The notes below the pieces were generated by a model. It searched no databases. It saw only the letters and a program-made list of their open reading frames with translations, and was not told the origin of the DNA. Of a stretch of DNA of 64,000 nt, positions 7,235 to 58,044 are shown piece by piece. This DNA comes from Deltaproteobacteria bacterium (GTDB lineage Bacteria > Desulfobacterota > GWC2-55-46). The translations under genes and the position numbers were made by a program. Location: assembly GCA_015075075.1 (NCBI GenBank), contig JABTVA010000004.1, forward strand, positions 124,001-188,000, given 5' to 3'. Position 1 is the first letter of the stretch. Every line of letters starts with the position of its first letter.

Positions 7235-7378
7235 GGCAACCTCTAAAAATTAGAAATTTTTCCCGCTTTTCCCGGAAGGGCGGGAATAAAAAGCGGAGCA
7301 TATATGCGAATATGTGAGCATTTTTATTCACGTAACCTACGCAGAGTCCGGGGAAAATAGCAATTTTTAGAGGTTGCC
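7235..7378. mobile_element. MITE-like palindromic element, copy M1 (intact)
   Basis: A 144-bp non-coding element with terminal inverted repeats GGCAACCTCTAAAAATT and AATTTTTAGAGGTTGCC. It is flanked by a 4-bp direct duplication TAAA (7231-7234 and 7379-7382). Nearly the whole element can fold back on itself, through an inner AATAAAAA...TTTTTATT arm. No transposase is present here or elsewhere in the window. Confidence 0.88.
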
Positions 7379-27945: not shown

Positions 27946-29025
27946 ATGGCGCTCCGTGAAGAAAAGGCGAAAAAGGGCTTAAGGCTTGTCTTCGCGGGCG
28001 GCGGGACAGGCGGCCACCTCTTCCCGGCGATCGCGCTTGCCGAGGAGTTCAGGCGGAGGGATCCGGGCATCGACATAACCTTCATGGGCGGCAGGGGCGG
28101 CCTCGAGGAGAAGGTCGTCCCGAAATACGGCTACCCCCTCAAGGTCTTCAGGGTCGAGGGGCTGAAGAGGAAGAAGGGCCTCGGGCGGATAAGGGCGGTC
28201 TTGAAGGCCGCGAGCTCCACGATGGAGGCGCTCCGGCACTTCCGCTCGACGAGGCCGGACGGGGTCATAGGTAGCGGAAGCTACTCGTCCGCGCCGGTCG
28301 TGACCGCGGCGAGGCTCCTGGGCATAAAGACGGCCATACTGGAGCAGAACGCCCTCCCGGGGCTCACGAACAGGGTCCTCGGCAGGTTCGTAGACAGGGT
28401 CTACATCTCTTTCGAGGAATCGAGGAGGTACTTCCCCGGCGGGCGCACGATATTGAGCGGCAACCCCGTACGGAGGGAGATCGCGAGGAAGCTCGAGGAC
28501 AGGAGGGTGGCGGACAAGTTCTCCATACTCGTCTTCGGCGGGAGCCAGGGCGCCACGGCCGTCAACGCGGCCTTCCTGGACGCCATAGAGTTCCTCACCG
28601 ACATCTGGAGCGGCCTCCGGATAGCGCACCAGACCGGCAAGGAGGGCTACGACGCGGTGGTCGCCGCGTACAGGAGGAAGAACCTCAAGGCCGAGGTCTC
28701 GGTATTCATAGAGGACATGGGGGCCGCGTACAGCTCCGCCGACCTCGTGGTATGCAGGGCCGGCGCGACGTCGCTCGCGGAGATAACTGCGTCAGCTCGC
28801 GGCAATACTGACACTGCATCCGTCTCGCGTCGGACGACCACCAGACCGTCAACGCGGCGCCTTGAGAAGGCCGGGGCAGCGGATGATAAGGCAGGACGTT
28901 TACTGGAGCGACGCTGGCGGAGGCCAAAGAGGCTTCACCACGACCGCCAGGCCCCAGGCTCATGCGGGAGAGGTCGAAAGCTGGGGAGGCCCAGGGCCTC
29001 GCAGGAGATAGCGGAACCTTCTTGA
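27946..29025 (+). CDS. murG: UDP-GlcNAc:lipid I transferase MurG, frameshifted C-terminus
   Basis: The first 280 residues are a standard MurG: LVFAGGGTGGHLFPAIALAEE near the start, GSGSYSSAPVVTAARLLG near residue 105, HEQN-equivalent LEQNALPGLTNR near 125, FGGSQGATAVN near 200, and SADLVVCRAGATSLAEI near 265. After about 28785 the frame is lost, but the expected sequence can be read in other frames (SDDHQTVNAA, then LEKAGAAD, then RRLHHDRQA). Several indels therefore lie in 28790-29030. MurG adds GlcNAc to lipid I at the inner membrane. The GGGGGAATGG start is good. Confidence 0.9.
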   Translation: MALREEKAKKGLRLVFAGGGTGGHLFPAIALAEEFRRRDPGIDITFMGGRGGLEEKVVPKYGYPLKVFRVEGLKRKKGLGRIRAVLKAASSTMEALRHFRSTRPDGVIGSGSYSSAPVVTAARLLGIKTAILEQNALPGLTNRVLGRFVDRVYISFEESRRYFPGGRTILSGNPVRREIARKLEDRRVADKFSILVFGGSQGATAVNAAFLDAIEFLTDIWSGLRIAHQTGKEGYDAVVAAYRRKNLKAEVSVFIEDMGAAYSSADLVVCRAGATSLAEITASARGNTDTASVSRRTTTRPSTRRLEKAGAADDKAGRLLERRWRRPKRLHHDRQAPGSCGRGRKLGRPRASQEIAEPS

Positions 29026-29064
29026 GGTTATTAGGGCGGCTTAGGCCGCGAAAGAGGTGAAGCG

Positions 29065-30432
29065 GTGTACAGGGGCAGGATACGAAGACAAGATTTCACC
29101 AGGGGTCGGCGGCAGCGGCATGAACGGCATAGCCGAGGTCCCTCGTCAACATGGGCCAATGTGACCGGCTCGGACCTCGCCGAGAGCGAGACCACCAGAG
29201 GCCTCAAGGGCCTGGGTGGCCATATTCATCGGCCACAGGGCGGAAAACGTCCTCGGTCTGACTGCGTGGTCTATCCTCAGCCGTGAAAAGGGAACCCGGA
29301 ATTCAGGAGGCCGAATCCCGCCAGATACCCATAATCCCCAGGGCCGAGATGCTCGCCGAGCTCATGCGCATGAAATACGGCATAGCCATAGCGGGGAACG
29401 CACGGGAAGACCACGACGACCTCGATGGTCTCGATGATACTCGCGGCAGCGCACATGGACCCGACCATCGTCACCGGCGGGAAGCTCAATAGCCTCGGCG
29501 CGAACGCGAAGCTCGGGGGCGGGGACTTCCTCGTCGCCGAGGCCGACGAGAGCGACGGGAGCTTCCTTAAGCTATCGCCCACCATAGCCGTGGTCACGAA
29601 TATCGACAGGGAGCACATGGACCACTACCGGGACATGGAGGAGGTCAAGGGCGCGTTCCTCGACTTCATGAACAAGGTCCCGTTCTACGGGTGCGCGGTA
29701 ATATGCCTGGACCACCCTGTCATACAGGGCCTAATACCTAAGATAACGAGGAGGTTCAGGTCCTACGGGCTCACGGCCCAGGCCGACTTCCATGCGAAGA
29801 AAATAGCGCCGGACGGCATGAGGACCTCTTTCGAGGTCTGGAACGGCGCGCGCCTGGGAGAGATTACCTCAACATGCCCGGCGAGCACAACGTATATAAC
29901 TCGCTTGCCGCGGTCGCCGGGCAAGGAGCTGGAGATACCTTTCGACGGGATAAGTACCGCCCGAAGGCTTTACCGAGTTGAAGCGTTTCCATCTGAGGGA
30001 GAGGCCGCCGGCATAACCGTGGTCGACGACTACGGGCACCACCCCGAGGAGATAAAGGCAGTGCTCAGGGCCGCTCGGATGGGCTGGACAAGGAGGGTCG
30101 TTGCCGTTTTCCAGCCGCACAGGTTCACGAGGACCAGGGACCTCTTTAACGAATTTCTCTCCTCTTTCAACGACGCTGAGAAGCTCATCATTACCGAGGT
30201 CTATCCCGCGGGCGAGGAAAGGATAGAGGGCGCATCGGGCGAGGCGCTCTACAAGGGCATAAAGGCCTACGGCCACAAGGACGTTTCGTACGTCCCCGAT
30301 CTTGCCAGGCTCCCGGAGCACCTCTCCGGCGTGGTCGAGACCGGGGACATGGTCATAACTCTCGGGGCCGGGGACGTCTGGAAGGCAGGGGTGGCATTCG
30401 TAAATACGCTTAAGAGCAGGGCGGGCGCGTAG
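29065..30432 (+). CDS. murC: UDP-MurNAc:L-Ala ligase MurC, many indels in 5' third
   Basis: Pieces in three frames make one Mur[12 protein letters not shown] lies near 29110-29145, [12 protein letters not shown] near 29162-29195, and [11 protein letters not shown] near 29226. The P-loop [13 protein letters not shown] near 29395-29435 is broken by one extra A. An intact stretch from 29440 reads [19 protein letters not shown] through the C-terminus, including [16 protein letters not shown] and [14 protein letters not shown] second local shift lies at about 29865-29965, where [16 protein letters not shown] reads in another frame. MurC starts the peptide stem. The GTG start follows AAAGAGGTGAAGC. 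Confidence 0.9.
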
Positions 30433-42053: not shown

Positions 42054-42719
42054 ATGCGTAGAGCCGTTTATCTATCCGCCATTCCGGTTTTGGCTGCGGC
42101 AATCTTCATATCGACAGGCGCCCATGCCGGGGTGGCAGAGGGCAAAAAGGCGTTCGAGGCCAGAAAGTGCGCCTCGTGCCACCAGGTCGCCGGTCCGGCG
42201 GCTGAAAAGACCATAAAGGACCAGCTCTCAAAAAAGGGCCCTGAGCTGTGGTATTCCGGGAGCAAGTTCAAGGCCGGGTTCCTCGAGAAATGGCGCGCTG
42301 ACCCGAGGCCCATAAGGCCCCTGGCCTACAACTCCGTGACCGAGAGGAACACGGGCGGCCACCCGATGCTTTCCGGGCAGGAGAAGGCGGACGTCGCGGC
42401 CTATCTGATGAGCCTCAAGTCGGCTGATGTGAAACCGCTCGGCATACAGGCGGCGGACAACCCAAAGGGCAGGATCGCCTTTGTAAGAAAGCATTCATGC
42501 TATGGCTGCCACCAGGTGAGGACGAGGGGCAGTCTTGTCGGGGGCTTCTCCGGCCCTTCGCTCGCCGAGGCCTCGGAGAGGCTGAATCCCGACTGGGTGT
42601 ACGCGTATCTCTCAAAGCCCTCCGTATTCAAGCCGGTAAAGATGATGCCCGTCTACGCCGGGATAATCAATGACGCGGAGATGAAGGGGCTTGCCGCGTA
42701 TGTGGGGAGCCTGAGATGA
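42054..42719 (+). CDS. Periplasmic dihaem cytochrome c
   Basis: A 221-residue protein with a signal peptide ending near AHA (residue 25). Two class I haem domains follow: CASCHQVAG near residue 39 and CYGCHQVRT near residue 148. Methionines suited as distal ligands are in GHPMLSG and KMMPVYAG. It should carry electrons in the periplasm. Its stop TGA is part of an ATGA that was duplicated by a MITE insertion, so it probably once overlapped the next cytochrome gene directly. Confidence 0.9.
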   Translation: MRRAVYLSAIPVLAAAIFISTGAHAGVAEGKKAFEARKCASCHQVAGPAAEKTIKDQLSKKGPELWYSGSKFKAGFLEKWRADPRPIRPLAYNSVTERNTGGHPMLSGQEKADVAAYLMSLKSADVKPLGIQAADNPKGRIAFVRKHSCYGCHQVRTRGSLVGGFSGPSLAEASERLNPDWVYAYLSKPSVFKPVKMMPVYAGIINDAEMKGLAAYVGSLR

Positions 42720-42862
42720 TGCATCCTCTAAAAATTGATCTTTTCCCCGGACTCTGCGTCAGGCCGTTAATAAAAATGCTCACATATTGTCTTATATGCT
42801 CCGCTTTTTATTCCCGGCCTTCCGGGAAAAGCGGGAAAAATCTCTAATTTTTAGAGGCTGCA
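42720..42862. mobile_element. MITE copy M4, inserted in an ATGA stop/start overlap
   Basis: A 143-bp element with ends TGCATCCTCTAAAAATT and AATTTTTAGAGGCTGCA. It is flanked by the 4-bp duplication ATGA (42716-42719 and 42863-42866). The left ATGA holds the stop of the upstream cytochrome and the right ATGA holds the start of the downstream one. The end AGAGG lies five bases before that ATG. Confidence 0.88.
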
Positions 42863-43219
42863 ATGACTATTAGACTCCTTATGCCGGCTTTGGTTTTTTT
42901 TGCGCTCGGGGCGGGTATTCCCGCTTACGCCGCGACGGCAGAGGAGAACTACAGGTTCCACTGCGCCCAGTGCCACGGCCTTGAGGGAAAGGGGAACGGC
43001 ATAAACGCTACGAGGGAGATGCCCGTAAGCCCGAGAGACCACACGAGCGCGCTCGAGATGGGAAAGCTTACGGACGCGGACATAATAAACGCCATAACGG
43101 ACGGCGGCAGGCGACAAGCAAGTCGAGCCTCATGCCGCCGTACGGAAAACACTTTCAAAAACGAGATACCTCGAATTGAAGGACTATCTGAGGAAGCTCT
43201 GCAACTGCAAGGCAGGTAA
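42863..43219 (+). CDS. Small class I cytochrome c, frameshifted C-terminus
   Basis: Signal peptide (MTIRLLMPALVFFALGAGIPAYA), then CAQCHGLEGKGNG near residue 34. A proper C-terminal part can be read only across indels from about 43105: KSSLMPPYGK (distal Met) and then ELKDYLRKLCNCKAG. So it is a cytochrome of about 115 residues with two or three indels in the last third. The listed end is that of the uncorrected frame; the corrected frame runs a few codons further. The ATG lies in the right-hand target duplication of MITE M4, whose end AGAGG could act as ribosome site. Confidence 0.82.
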   Translation: MTIRLLMPALVFFALGAGIPAYAATAEENYRFHCAQCHGLEGKGNGINATREMPVSPRDHTSALEMGKLTDADIINAITDGGRRQASRASCRRTENTFKNEIPRIEGLSEEALQLQGR

Positions 43220-43274
43220 ACCTTCTAGAAGCTTTAGGCGGCCCTGACGCCGCCTTGAACAAAAGAGAACGGAA

Positions 43275-43473
43275 ATGGCTTCAGAAAAGTTTGGCATCCT
43301 CCTTATGGTCCTCGGGCGGTCCTCGTTATAGAGGGCATCCCGTATTTCGCTCTGAAGGCCGTAAGGAATGGGCAGCGTTTCTTCACAGGCCCCGGAGAAG
43401 AGGTGATGCCCTTCGGCTTAATCATAATGGCGGTCGGCATAACCTCCTCGCCATCAGGGACATCTGGCGTTGA
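43275..43473 (+). CDS. DUF2065/YjeT-like small membrane protein, frameshifted
   Basis: Joining three frames gives a protein of about 65 residues: MASEKFGILLMVLG, then VLVIEGIPYFAL, then MPFGLIIMAVGIT, ending LLAIRDIWR. Two TM helices around an EG-PYFA motif match DUF2065 (YjeT), a small inner-membrane family of unknown function. At least two indels lie in under 200 bases. The exact coding path cannot be fixed from this sequence. Confidence 0.6.
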
Positions 43474-43541
43474 GCGCGGATGCGCATGCGGAATACGCGA
43501 GACCTTTGCCGTATCGCCGTCCCTGGCACAAATCCCGGAAA

Positions 43542-44654
43542 ATGACTGACCTCAAGACAAGCCCGCCCAGGCCCATATGGGTACTTGCGCCTTCATCGGG
43601 GTTGCCTCCATGCCGCGCCAGGGCAGGCGGGCGGCGATGAGAAGGTAGTCCTGATACTCAGAACAGGCGGACAGGTCGAACTCAAGGGCACTGACAGGGC
43701 GATATCGTAGTGCGCTCCGGCACGAACGGCACGATATTATTAAACGGCTCCAGGGTGGCGCTCCCGGTAATGCTTTATCCCAAAGGCAGGTTCATATCCG
43801 TAAACGGGAAACCCTACAGGGGCGTTATAAAGATAGCGGCCGGCGAGGGGCAGGCGCTTGTCATAAATGAAATAGGGCTCGAAGCCTATGTGGCAGGGAT
43901 AATCAATAACGAGATATCCTCCAGGTGGCCGGAAGAGGTGCTTAAAACCCAGGCGGTCATTGCCCGGACCTATGCCGTATACAACATGAGGAAGAGGTCG
44001 AACCTTCCGTACCACCTCGAAAGCTCGGTCATGGGGCAGGTCTACGGCGGCGCATCGAGCGAGGACAGCGCCTCCATACGGGCTGTCATGGATACCAGGG
44101 GCGAGATACTCGTCTTCGAGGGCGAGCCTGCCCTTACGGTGTACCATTCCAATGCCGGAGGCATGACGGAAGCGGCAAGCGAGGTCTGGCTCAAGGGCTA
44201 TCCGTATCTCGTTCCAGTGGAAAGCCCGTTCGACGAGTCGGCCCCGAGATACATCTGGGAGTTCGCGGTTTCAGCCGAGTCGCTCGGCGAGGCGCTCTCC
44301 AGGGCAGGCCATCAGATAGGCGCGCCCGAAGAGCTCAGGGTTATAGAGACCACCTCTGCCGCTCGGATACGGACCTTGAGCGTCCGCGACCGCGAAGGCA
44401 GGGACGCCTGGCTTTCGGGGGAGGAGCTAAGGAAGGTCCTGGGCTATTCGAGCCTTAGGTCAACGATCTTCGAGGTGGCGAAGGAAGGCGAGGTCTTCGT
44501 ATTCAGGGGGAGGGGGTCTGGCCACGGGGTAGGCCTTTCACAGTGGGGGGCAAAGGGCATGGCCGAGAACGGGTATTCCTACAGGGACATACTCAGGCAC
44601 TTCTATCCGGGCACCGAGCTCCAACGGGGCCCCTCTTTCCGTAACCAGCCGTAA
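43542..44654 (+). CDS. SpoIID/LytB-domain protein, frameshifted N-terminus
   Basis: The intact part (from about 43710) is a SpoIID domain. Motifs are LEAYVAGIINNEISSRWPEE, LKTQAVIARTYAVYNM, VYGGASSEDSASIRAVMDT, VYHSNAGGMTEAASEVW and RGSGHGVGLSQWGAKGMAE with a final HFYPGTEL. SpoIID cleaves denuded glycan strands in sporulation, and non-sporulating homologues act on cell-wall glycan at division. The N-terminus at 43542-43710 (MTDLKTSPPRPIW, then ILRTGGQVELKGT) has several indels and probably encodes a membrane anchor or signal. The start is tentative. Confidence 0.83.
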
Positions 44655-47320: not shown

Positions 47321-47462
47321 GGCAACCTCTAAAAATTGATATTTTCCCCGGACTCTGTGTCAGGCCGTGAATAAAAATGCTCACATATTGTCATCTATGC
47401 TCCGCTTTTTATTCCCGGTCTTCCTTGATTGCGGGAAAAATCTCTAATTTTTAGAGATTGTC
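47321..47462. mobile_element. MITE copy M5, between yajC and secD
   Basis: A 142-bp element starting GGCAACCTCTAAAAATTGAT two bases after the yajC stop and ending AATTTTTAGAGATTGTC. The centre has CCCCGGACTCTGTGTCAGGC and ATAAAAATGCTCACATATTG, as in the other copies. Flanking bases AGCT and AGTA agree only partly, so the target duplication has drifted. Confidence 0.85.
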
Positions 47463-50178: not shown

Positions 50179-50517
50179 CCGGCCCCATTCCCATCATCCC
50201 TGTTCCGGTCCTGGCAGGCATCAGGCCTTGAGGCCTCGGTTTGCCCTGAGGTCGCGGATATCCCGCCAGGTTCACGCCATTTTCCCCCGATAAACCTTAA
50301 AAATCACGGTTGTAATTTTTTGGCATTTGTGCTATTCACAGTTATCGGCTGCGGCGGTCAAATCAATCGGAAGTTGAAGGAAAGCAACCGGCGCTGGATT
50401 GTTTTCCTTGCCGCATAGGGGCTCACGATGGGCCGCGCCAGGCTAAGATGCCGTTAAACCTGAAGGTATTTTCGGCGTCTTTTTTTTGCTTGAAAAGGAG
50501 CAGCCATTCTCAAGCAG
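50179..50517. other. Gap between secF and the GGDEF gene
   Basis: About 340 bases without a gene. It holds GC-rich short palindromes near 50215-50240 and an AT-rich stretch near 50295-50345 that could carry a promoter for the signalling block, but I find no pair of boxes good enough to assign. No riboswitch core was recognised. Confidence 0.4.
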
Positions 50518-52070
50518 ATGGAAAACAAGGACTGCATCCCGAAGGTCCTGCCGCCCCTGGACCTGTCCGGCTGGCGCGAATTCCAGAACGGGCTATCGTC
50601 CCTGCTGGCATGCCGCTCTCCTCCATGATTCCGGGGCGCTGCTCGTCCGCCCGCCTGGGGAGCCGTGCGCAGGTCGATAGCCGGAAGCCGCGGGCGCCGA
50701 GCTATCTCGGCAGCGATAGCCTGCAATCAGCGAGGCGCGCTGAGAAGAAGAGCGTCCATATCCATAAATGCCACGCCAACAATTACATCTTCGGGATCCC
50801 GGTACTGCTCGATTCCGGCCACTCGTTCGTGATACTCGGGGGCCGCACCTATCTTAAGGGGACCGAGATACGGGATTTCTACGAAGGGGTGATGGGCTAC
50901 GGCCTGGACGAGCAGGCCGTATTCGGGCTCCGGCAGGAGATAAACCCTGTCCCGCCCGGTTCGATATTCATGGTCCCGGCCATCGTGAACGGCATGGCGG
51001 CGCCGTTTCTGAGGTGTGTCGTGACGTCCGCAGGCTCCTGCCTCGGCGAGCCCGCCCCCGTGGGCCTCAAGGGCTTCAAGGCGCTCGAGGAGGTGTACAA
51101 GTCGCTCGCGCCGGTCCTGGACAGGGAGGAGCTCTACGAGACGATACTCGCGAAATCGTCCGAGCTCGTGGGCGCCGACAGGGGCTCGCTCATGATACTC
51201 GACAAGAAAAACAACGTCCTTTCGGTCAAGGCCGCCAGGGGCATGGACTTTAAGGCGGTCGAGAACCTTAAGATAAAGGTCGGGGAGGGGATCTCGGGCG
51301 CAATCGCCGCAAAGGGTATGCCGGTCTTCGTAAGGGACATCGAAAGAGAGGTGCCGGCCTGGAAGAACAGGCCGAGGTACAAGACGAAGTCCTTCATATC
51401 CATCCCGCTCATGCTGGAGCGGAAGGTGATAGGCGTCCTGAACGTCTCCGACAAGACTTCCGGCGCGGTCTTCTCCGAGGAGGACCTCCACCTCCTCACC
51501 TCGTTCGCCAACTACGCCTCCATAGCGCTCGAGCGCGGAGCGTACTACAGCATGAGCGAGGAATTGAAGATGCTCTCCATGACCGACCCGCTCACCGGCC
51601 TTTTCAACAGGAGGTACTTCAGGGAAAGGCTCTTCGAGGAGGTCGAGAGGGTAAAGAGGCACAACGAGTGCTTCACTTCCTTTGTTATAGACATAGACAA
51701 CTTTAAGACCTTTAACGACAGGTACGGCCACCTCGCCGGGGACGAGGTCCTGAAGGGGGTCGCGAGGGCCATAAGGGACGCGGTCAGGTCAATGGACGTG
51801 GTCGCGCGCTACGGGGGCGAGGAGTTCGCGGTCATACTGCCCCACACGAACAAGAAGGACGCCTATGTCATCGCCGAGAGGATACGGAGGGGCGTGCAGG
51901 ACTACAGGCCGCCTAACGCCGACCACGACGTATGGCCTACGATAAGCCTGGGGGTCGCGGAGTTCCCGGTGGACGCGAGCCACATAGACGACCTCATAAA
52001 CAAGGCCGACAAGGCCATGTATCTCGCAAAGAGGATGGGAAAGAACAAGGTTGTCGTTTATGAAAGATAA
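50518..52070 (+). CDS. PocR-GAF-GGDEF diguanylate cyclase, indels in first 200 bases
   Basis: From about 50750 the frame is intact. The PocR-type sensor (HKCHANNYIFGIPVLLDSGH, ILGGRTYLKGTEI) is followed by a GAF domain (LGADRGSLMIL-like LVGADRGSLMILDKKNNVL) and a GGDEF domain with RYGGEEFAVILP. The I-site RSMD lies five residues before GGEEF, so product inhibition is likely. Before 50750 the PocR start can be read across frames (MENKDCIPKVLPPLDLSGW, then LLVRPPGEP), so indels lie there. It makes c-di-GMP from GTP. It overlaps the ATPase gene by 11 bases. Confidence 0.9.
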
Positions 52071-54625: not shown

Positions 54626-54749
54626 TGAAAATTGATCTTTTCCCCGGACTCTGTGTCAGGCCGGGAATAAAAATGCTCACATATTGCTTATATGCTCCGC
54701 TTTTTATTCCCGGCCTTCCTTGATTGCGGGGAAAATCTCTAATTTTCAT
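54626..54749. mobile_element. MITE copy M6, after the STAS gene
   Basis: Begins ATGAAAATTGATCTTTTCCC next to the STAS stop and ends AATCTCTAATTTTCAT. The central arms GGCCGGGAATAAAAA and TTTTTATTCCCGGCC pair perfectly. The outer ends differ from the consensus (ATGAAAATT in place of TCTAAAAATT) but still match each other. It separates STAS from the GAF-HD-GYP gene by about 160 bases in total. Confidence 0.82.
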
Positions 54750-54787
54750 AGCTTTCATGAATAAACACCAACCCCCCGGAGGTATGG

Positions 54788-56200: not shown

Positions 56201-56348
56201 CAGGACATCCCCCCTACACACAGATGGATTTCGGCGCGGCCTCAGTCCTTTTGACGGGCGTTCCTTTCCTGACCTTTGCTCCTTTTGAAAGTAAAATGGT
56301 CTCCGACCGACCCGTTTACTTATTTTCGGACAGGGTGAAGATTGATTG

Positions 56349-58044
56349 ATGCTCGGAAGACGGTGGAAAATCAGCCCGGCTAACAGGGAACTGCAGGAGC
56401 GGCTGGGCAGGAAATTGAACATACTGCCCCTTACGGCGCAGCTTCTCGTAAACAGGGGCGCTGTCGACGCGGACAAGGCCTTTTCTTTCTAAGCCGGACC
56501 TCGCCTCCCTCCACGACCCCATGCTCATGAAAGGCATGGACAGGGCCGTCGAGCGCATAGCCCGCGGCTTCGCGAGAGGGAAAGATTACCGTCTACGGCG
56601 ACTACGACGTCGACGGCGCGACCTCGACGGCCCTTCTTCCTCTTTCTCCGCGGAAATAGGGCGGACGCCGCCACGTACATACCGAGAGGCTCTCCGAGGG
56701 TACGGCCTGAACCCCGAGGCCGTGAAGAAGCTCGCCGCCTCGGGCTGCCGCCTCGTCATAACCGTGGACTGCGGCTCATCGAACAGGGCCGAGGTGGAAC
56801 TGGCAAACTCGCTCGGCATTGACGTCATCGTGACCGACCACCATGAAATGCCCAAGGACGCGCCTCCCGCGCTCGCGGTCCTCAATCCAGGCCAGGAGAG
56901 TTGCCGTTTCCCTTTCAAAGGGCTCGAGGGTGGGTGTCGCATTCAACCTCGCGCTTGCGCTCCAGGCATATCTCCGCGAGACGGGTGGTTCAGGAAGGCG
57001 ACCGAACCTCAAGAGGTACTCGACCTCGTGGCCCTGGGGACGGTAGCGGACCTCGTCCCGCTCTATGTGACGAGAACCGCGTTTTCGTGCACTACGGCGT
57101 CGAAGGCTCGAGGCGATGAAGAGCCGTTGGGCTTAAGGCCCCGGAGGGGCCGGGCTCAAGGGCGGCAGCTCTCCGCAAGCCACATCGCCCTTCAGATGGC
57201 AGCCGAGGCTCAATGCCGCCGGGAGGATATCGACCGCGGACACGGCGCTCAGGCTCCCTTACGACCGAAAGCCCGGAAGAGGCCTCGGCCCTGCGGCTGC
57301 CCTCGAAAAAGAACTCCTCGCGCCAGAGATAGAGGCCGAGACCCTGGAGGAGGCCCTCTCCATGCCTCGAAGGGCACAGGGACAGGGGCATAGTCCTACT
57401 CAGAGCGCTGGCATCCGGGCGTCATAGGCATAGTCGCGTCCCGTCTCGTGGACAGGTTCTCGAGGCCCGCGGTCCTCATAGCCCTTGAGAACGGTGTGGG
57501 CAAGGGCTCGGCCAGGAGCATACGCTCCTTCAACATCCTCGAGGGGCTCAAGGGCTGCGCTGTCCTCCTCGAACGCTTCGGCGGGCACAAGGCAGCGGCG
57601 GGCCTGACCGTCTCCGGCGGGATGGTCGAGGCCTTCAGAAAAGAGTTTATCAGGCAGGTGAACGGCGCCCTTACGGACGAGGACCTCGTATACGAGGTTA
57701 CGCTCGACGCGGTCGTCTCCCTCGAGGAAGTGGGCAGGAGGCTCGTCTCCGAGATAGAGAGCCTGGCCCCGTTCGGCGCCTCCAACCACGAGCCGCTCCT
57801 GTGCCTGCCCGACACGCACATAGTGGAAACCGAAGTCGTGGGCGCAAGGCACCTGAAGTTCAAGGTGAAGCATAACGGGCGCCTCCAGCGCGGCATAGGG
57901 TTCGGGCTCGCCGGCCTCCACCCGGTGCAGGGAAAGGGCTACGGCATAGCTTTTTCGCCCTACATGGACGAATGGCAGGGCAATACGAGCTTGAGGCTGC
58001 GGATAAAGGACGTCAAGCAGGGCTTTGTAAATCCCTTGACATGA
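56349..58044 (+). CDS. recJ: Single-strand-specific 5'-3' exonuclease RecJ, heavily frameshifted
   Basis: Pieces across all three frames follow the RecJ order. MLGRRWKISPANRELQERLG is at the start and DYDV-type YGDYDVDGAT can be read near 56600. VKKLAASGCRLVITVDCGSSN and DVIVTDHHEMPKDAPPALAVLNPG (DHH motif) lie at 56720-56890, then FNLALALQAYLRE near 56945 and VLDLVALGTVADLVPL near 57018. The C-terminal part from 57448 is intact (FGGHKAAAGLTV is the DHHA1 motif). Ten or so indels lie in 56480-57440. RecJ acts in recombination and mismatch repair. The gene is probably whole in the organism. Confidence 0.87.

Follow-up and report, generated by a model that had tools for sequence, protein, structure and literature searches.

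A short inverted-repeat element in the ATGA overlap of two cytochrome genes, with a candidate ribosome-binding site at its tip

Introduction

Bacterial MITEs such as RUP, Correia/NEMIS, ERIC and MITEAba12 are short, non-coding elements with terminal inverted repeats and a short target duplication, which reach high copy number, can form hairpins and are found mostly between genes. Insertions near start codons are usually expected to disrupt translation. The family described here resembles these MITEs in all of the above respects, but differs in its 4-bp AT-rich target, in its GGCAACCTCTAAAAATT ends, and in its tips, which bear AGAGG at a spacing of five bases from the target and occur ahead of ATG starts. 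A term search of a MITE review (PMC10969869) gave no match to ‘ribosom’ or ‘start codon’.

Two further systems offer points of comparison. In pneumococcal BOX, too, a repeat at the end of a gene supplies a coding signal: the accessible part of one study (PMC3049150) gives 36 of 58 overlapping genes as taking their stop codon from BOX, and describes the tested BOX-started ORFs as lacking good Shine-Dalgarno candidates. The present element differs in that the target copy restores both the stop and the start codon while the tip offers a candidate ribosome site. The second system is the coupling of translation by termination and re-initiation at ATGA overlaps. Before the insertion our gene pair had the common −4 overlap of such pairs; the two genes now differ from them in lying 143 bp apart, beyond the gaps of 20–38 nt over which re-initiation is nearly lost according to the sections available of PMC10666635. 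In the literature searched, part of it as partial texts and with most subscription journals outside the search, we found neither a MITE tip described as a ribosome site nor an insertion into an ATGA overlap.

Results

An inverted-repeat element between two cytochrome genes

The window, by which we mean the whole stretch of DNA analysed, comprises 64,000 nucleotides (C34:124001–188000) from a draft genome of 2.6 Mb and 39 contigs. The features at the junction are as follows.

42054–42719, plus strand: upstream c-type cytochrome gene, 221 aa (Pfam Cytochrom_C, Cytochrome_CBB3), stop codon TGA at 42717–42719
42716–42719, plus strand: left ATGA copy of the target duplication, carrying the upstream stop codon TGA
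42720–42862, plus strand: MITE-like element, 143 bp, without an ORF (inverted repeats, family match)
42720–42736, plus strand: left terminal inverted repeat TGCATCCTCTAAAAATT (inverted-repeat scan)
42846–42862, plus strand: right terminal inverted repeat AATTTTTAGAGGCTGCA (inverted-repeat scan)
42853–42857, plus strand: AGAGG, candidate Shine-Dalgarno sequence, 5 nt upstream of the ATG, spacer CTGCA
42863–42866, plus strand: right ATGA copy of the target duplication, carrying the downstream start codon ATG
42863–43219, plus strand: downstream cytochrome gene, 118 aa in this assembly, with a signal peptide and CxxCH; reading frame lost from about 43107
43107–43699, no strand: cluster of short indels peculiar to this genome, a probable assembly-error patch by comparison with near relatives, which breaks the downstream gene

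Read directly, positions 42716–42866 consist of ATGA, a 143-bp palindromic element and ATGA again, the junction running CTG AGA TGA, then TGCATCCTCTAAAAATT...AATTTTTAGAGGCTGCA, then ATG ACT ATT. The terminal repeats, 17 bp long and 94% complementary, form the sole inverted pair detected in the stretch, and no ORF of 80 aa or more lies inside the element, which is thus short, bounded by inverted repeats and without a transposase gene, as MITEs are. With at most one mismatch allowed, CCTCTAAAAATT occurs six times in the window against 0.21 expected, a count of six or more being reached in none of 100 shuffles.

The element belongs to a family of at least 117 copies, 90 of them near full length, as counted by a profile run on the stretches retrieved around the matches listed. 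A search with the element in its own genome produced 160 first-look candidates, of which 40 were scored as copies (87–100% identity), and element ends occur in 25 of the 59 genomes searched, G002 having 133 end matches and G005 having 72. The family consensus measures 142 bp and reads GGCAACC...GGTTGCC; the copy studied here has T...A rather than G...C as its end bases, which holds for 3 of the 90 copies, itself included. Identical 4-mers flank 24 of the 90 near-full copies, compared with identical 3-mers at 8, 5-mers at 2 and 6- to 9-mers at none, as expected of an element with a target duplication of fixed length. Their targets are TTAA and TTTA (5 each), TCAA, TAAA, TATA and ATAA (2 each) and six single types, which include the ATGA at 42716 and one TCAT, the same target on the other strand. 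Because the family itself makes 4-bp duplications, the ATGA copies at 42716 and 42863 can be taken as a true target duplication. A preliminary description of this DNA had proposed a 143-bp element with an ATGA target duplication, the TGA of one gene in its left copy and the ATG of the next in its right, and direct reading together with the 4-bp family rule bears this out.

Copies are dispersed, and some have moved recently, given that the cytochrome insertion is lacking in G001, G002, G003 and G005. Others in the window are as follows.

7235–7378, minus strand: further family copy, target duplication TTTA/TAAA, its site empty in G002, which has a single TAAA
13719–13825, plus strand: partial family copy (family match)
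47321–47460, plus strand: further family copy, common to this genome and G005
54626–54753, plus strand: degenerate family copy, common to this genome and G002

Among ORFs of at least 150 aa lying inward of element ends at the examined loci, to a depth of 1.9 kb, clustering revealed no transposase family, and lone ends in the genome studied adjoin ordinary genes. In the planctomycete GWF2_42_9 (L277, 6195–7780), similar ends, each bordered by TAAA, are separated by 1586 bp and enclose a 367-aa ORF. This pair is possibly a cargo-carrying relative; its ORF was considered as the parent transposase and rejected, its sequence not being transposase-like on inspection. Three contig ends (C5:1, C21:5292 and C34:13) fall inside element copies, so the repeat breaks the assembly. 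Copies adjoin argH- and lysA-like genes at two loci in this genome (L140, L143) and at one in another (L263), reflecting either a shared insertion or one site used repeatedly.

The ATGA overlap predates the insertion

In a search of 59 genomes the upstream cytochrome was present in 47, G004 being among those that gave no match, and the junction could be parsed at 27 of 30 loci. The preliminary description had supposed that the two genes overlapped as ATGA and had suggested looking for the empty site in close relatives. The two nearest relatives both carry it. In G005 (86% amino acid identity in the upstream cytochrome) the junction reads CTTAG-ATGA-AGAAATTC, a clean four-base overlap without the element, and in G002 (94% identity) it reads CTGAG-ATGA-TGGCC-ATGACG, where the ATG of the overlap is in frame and the element is again missing. 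G001 reads CAG-ATGA-GATCG, in frame and with no family element, and G003 reads CAG-ATGA-TAACG followed by a different palindromic element. The ATGA context is therefore present in all four genus members with a readable junction, and since these relatives carry it without the family element, the overlap must be older than the insertion, which among the genomes compared was found in this genome only. Alignment with G002 places the left flank in agreement to its last base (94.8% over 500 bp), with the match resuming 13 bases into the right flank.

G002 also bears on a different history, in which both ATGAs are native: a G002-like ancestor would have had five bases between them, which the element replaced or pushed aside. 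This nearest relative reads exactly ATGA-TGGCC-ATGAC, and the alignment sets the last of its three ATGs opposite the ATG of the window. Against this, the family makes 4-bp duplications (24 of 90), the element ends abut the ATGAs exactly, G005 has a plain single ATGA overlap, and a precise 5-bp loss would be needed that is seen at no other copy; we give this history very little weight. The TGGCC of G002 was also considered as the excision scar of a lost copy, an idea that was dropped since such a scar cannot be told from native sequence.

Insertion into the ATGA overlap with duplication of the target is established by the sequence, by the duplication rule of the family and by the empty sites in relatives. 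A non-autonomous element entered the four-base overlap and duplicated ATGA, and with the target duplicated the TGA of the upstream gene and the ATG of the downstream gene were both retained, now 143 bp apart. Strains of the same species without the element would be expected to read CTGAGATGACTATT at this site.

Among the parsed loci, those from other genera of the taxonomic family mostly have the cytochrome pair separated by a normal gap. In two genomes of another genus (L066 in G025, L067 in G019) the gap holds a copy of the same element family, with TTTA / TTTG on both sides and its own AAGGAG downstream. The palindromic element of G003 (L329, G003:C58) has ends like GGCTGCTGAAAAAGTC...TTTTTCAGCAACC and is situated some 16 bases into the start region of that genome's downstream cytochrome.

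The tip as a possible ribosome site and the predicted hairpin that holds it

The earliest start available to the downstream gene is 42863, given an in-frame TAA at 42845–42847 and the lack of any start codon in the interval. AGAGG stands five bases ahead of this ATG, as the preliminary description had noted, and with the anti-Shine-Dalgarno sequence CACCTCC intact in the 16S rRNA of G002 and G005, AGAGG-N5-ATG is a Shine-Dalgarno-like sequence at a working distance from a true start. The former ribosome site of the downstream gene, GGGGAG, is in the tail of the upstream gene and now 143 bp off. Estimated pairing with the anti-Shine-Dalgarno sequence is −5.8 kcal/mol for AGAGGC, −8.1 for GGGGAG and −7.0 for the family consensus tip. 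The right tip most likely now serves as the Shine-Dalgarno sequence of the downstream cytochrome. An action of the element on transcription, as a promoter or terminator, would be another way to read the junction, and outward promoter-like sequences are known from other MITEs, for instance MITEAba12 in the part of PMC6382973 that was accessible; a consensus-type scan of 42600–43000, however, found no sigma-70-like promoter and no terminator-like site (shuffle means 0.3 and 0.4), and we regard such an action as improbable.

Folding in three contexts pairs AGAGG with the other arm of the element, with a mean unpaired probability of 0.001 and an opening cost of 10.1–13.9 kcal/mol. If the modelled hairpin forms, it is either opened by a terminating ribosome or leaves the downstream gene weakly translated. 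When bases up to 42729 were blocked, which is roughly as far as we take a ribosome to reach when it terminates at the TGA, the modelled cost fell by 5–10 kcal/mol, to 3.5–4.7. A ribosome terminating at 42717–42719 may therefore cover the left arm (42720–42729) and free AGAGG by opening the hairpin, in which case translation of the downstream gene would probably still depend on that of the upstream gene, the dependence now running through hairpin opening and not through direct re-initiation. The preliminary description had the element possibly supplying a ribosome site in place of translational coupling; this is not supported as worded, given that AGAGG is predicted to be paired with the other arm and that the stop codon sits where a ribosome would open that arm.

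Coupling kept in a new form is a tentative idea, which we would sooner doubt than accept. RNA unfolding is one of two coupling models put forward in the available part of PMC12548453, and the near loss of re-initiation over gaps of 20–38 nt (PMC10666635, seen in part) speaks for it, as does the modelled cost. On the other hand, the same modelled result would be obtained for any palindromic element directly behind a stop codon, and a screen described in the accessible sections of PMC12548453 linked structure directly after the stop codon with lower coupling. In the older insertions shared between species (below), moreover, the left arm carries mutations, and most copies at mreD and V-type ATPase B have lost it, so coupling is not what was kept there. 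Judging from the modelling, coupling by hairpin opening and independent initiation appear equally likely; the former is compatible with the best explanation of the locus, being its second and weaker half.

The downstream gene and the quality of the assembly

The claim that both genes were preserved stands for the stop and start signals, and falls short for the body of the downstream gene. Its start and first 80 codons are intact, but as assembled it is frameshifted from 43107 (about codon 82), probably through sequencing error. Comparison of the window with G002 and G005 gave 103 frame-changing indels peculiar to this genome, with long clean stretches between the places where they mainly bunch, at 28.8–30.0, 43.1–43.7, 50.2–50.75 and 56.2–57.4 kb. 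These bunches, of indels of 1–2 bases, are probably uncorrected assembly patches and not decay caused by the element, and they will disrupt gene calls (28800–30000, 43107–43699, 50200–50750 and 56270–57400). The 16S rRNA gene of this genome (L345, G000:C2:35995–37457) is damaged at its 3′ end and lacks CACCTCC, in contrast to the normal genes of G002 and G005, which again points to assembly error.

The insertion might nonetheless have been tolerated and not used, with the hairpin hiding the ribosome site and the downstream cytochrome poorly translated and decaying. The complete pairing of AGAGG in free RNA, the distance of 143 bp to the former Shine-Dalgarno sequence and the frameshifts from 43107, found in this genome alone, would all fit. 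The intact first 80 codons speak against it, as do the like clusters at 28.8–30.0, 50.2–50.75 and 56.2–57.4 kb, away from the element, and we consider it rather unlikely. Decay of the downstream gene as such was set aside, the same indel clusters being found at three other sites of the window.

The same junction at other genes

The preferred reading, in which the tip serves as a ribosome site, can be compared with other junctions of the same kind. Ahead of the aconitase gene (Pfam-supported) the element directly precedes the ATG in this genome, G002 and G005 and in shortened form in G004, and is missing in G001; the tip reads AGAGG here, AAGAG in G002, AGAGG in G005 and AGGGG in G004, in each case 5 nt before the ATG. 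The orphan left ATGA is intact here and in G002; G005 has ATAA in its place, and G004 has lost it. At mreD, this genome and G002 keep a remnant ending AGAGGTTGCC-ATG, the element of G005 is almost complete, with an ATGA at either end and its tip shortened, and no element was found in the stretch read in G004 and G001 (G003 was not parsed). The V-type ATPase B gene has remnants reading AGAGGTTGCC-ATG in this genome and AGAGGTTACC-ATG in G002, with no element in G005 or G004 and none in the stretch read in G001. At both of the latter genes only the right-hand tip is left in the genome studied. Four species thus share the element at aconitase, three at mreD and two at V-type ATPase B.

Insertions in single genomes show a similar arrangement. 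An EamA transporter in this genome reads AGAGG-TTGCCT-ATG, with no element within the 180 nt read in G002, G004 and G005. nuoL in G005 and cobS in G020 have ATGA on both sides and AGAGG-N5-ATG; the stop codon TAG upstream of nuoL lies 2 nt before the ATG, so this was an insertion into a start codon and not into an overlap.

The retention of the tip within one genus, with the same spacing, while the rest of the element decayed is the strongest support for a Shine-Dalgarno role. It is seen at aconitase, mreD and V-type ATPase B across species, while the cytochrome copy exists in one genome only, and decay alone may explain it. The claim that AGAGG acts as a ribosome site at the cytochrome junction is accordingly backed in an indirect way, through the same geometry at these three genes. 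The calculated opening cost is 0.9–8.0 kcal/mol in nine sequences of the three shared cases and 10.5–17.2 in four single-genome cases, with a median of 13.4 in 24 copies with perfect target duplications; a lower cost in older copies could also be expected from plain decay.

Some counts speak against the ribosome-site reading. Long ORFs stand behind 2 of 8 ATGs at profile-defined element ends and behind 56 of 273 ATGs 2–89 nt off, so that there is no excess. Nineteen junctions of an element end with an ATG were read in 18 stretches chosen from the matches listed (mostly exact ones, and not a full sample); 5 of them head ORFs of at least 150 aa, among them L396, whose ORF may truly begin further in, and 14 head none of that length. 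Two ATGA duplications have no gene at the right copy, L394 and L390, the latter seemingly the same insertion as L260.

Where copies lie relative to genes

A survey of the 90 copies with a crude gene caller placed none inside a gene and 67 between co-directed genes. Within these 67 gaps the stop codon was nearer in 45 and the start codon in 21, with one tie, at median distances of 11 nt (stop) and 78 nt (start). Distances to the start were 0–1 nt at 4 of 86 copies, 2–19 nt at 5 and 20–39 nt at 18, and the corresponding counts for the stop were 9, 24 and 5 of 85. These distances agree with a simple picture: an insertion that separates a start codon from its ribosome site is eliminated, except where the element's own tip comes to lie at a suitable spacing. 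At six copies in this genome, with stop distances of −12, −19 or −31 (L030, L021, L003, L103, L101 and L154), the same crude caller has the upstream ORFs end inside the element, which gives them a stop codon and a short new tail such as GGC AAC CTC TAA.

Discussion

We have described a 143-bp element that duplicated the ATGA overlap of two cytochrome genes. Taken whole, the explanation that combines this insertion with use of the tip as ribosome site and a dependence on hairpin opening appears to us probable, its last part being the least firm. At this four-base gene overlap a single short element has left the stop and start codons unharmed, and possibly ribosome binding as well.

A broader reading would see the family as a portable ribosome-binding site, whose recurrent insertions mature by losing the arm that masks the tip while the tip stays permanently; we put this at a little under an even chance. 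If it is correct, an element entering an ATGN start codon re-creates the start and contributes a Shine-Dalgarno sequence of its own five bases off, and one entering an ATGA overlap re-creates stop, start and ribosome site together. Such events would have recurred at the cytochrome, aconitase, mreD, V-type ATPase B and EamA genes of this genome and at nuoL and cobS of relatives. Across several species of a single genus, housekeeping genes seem to have had their ribosome sites replaced by this family. Mobile DNA could then rewire translation without altering a protein, and tightly coupled gene pairs would have a natural route by which to separate.
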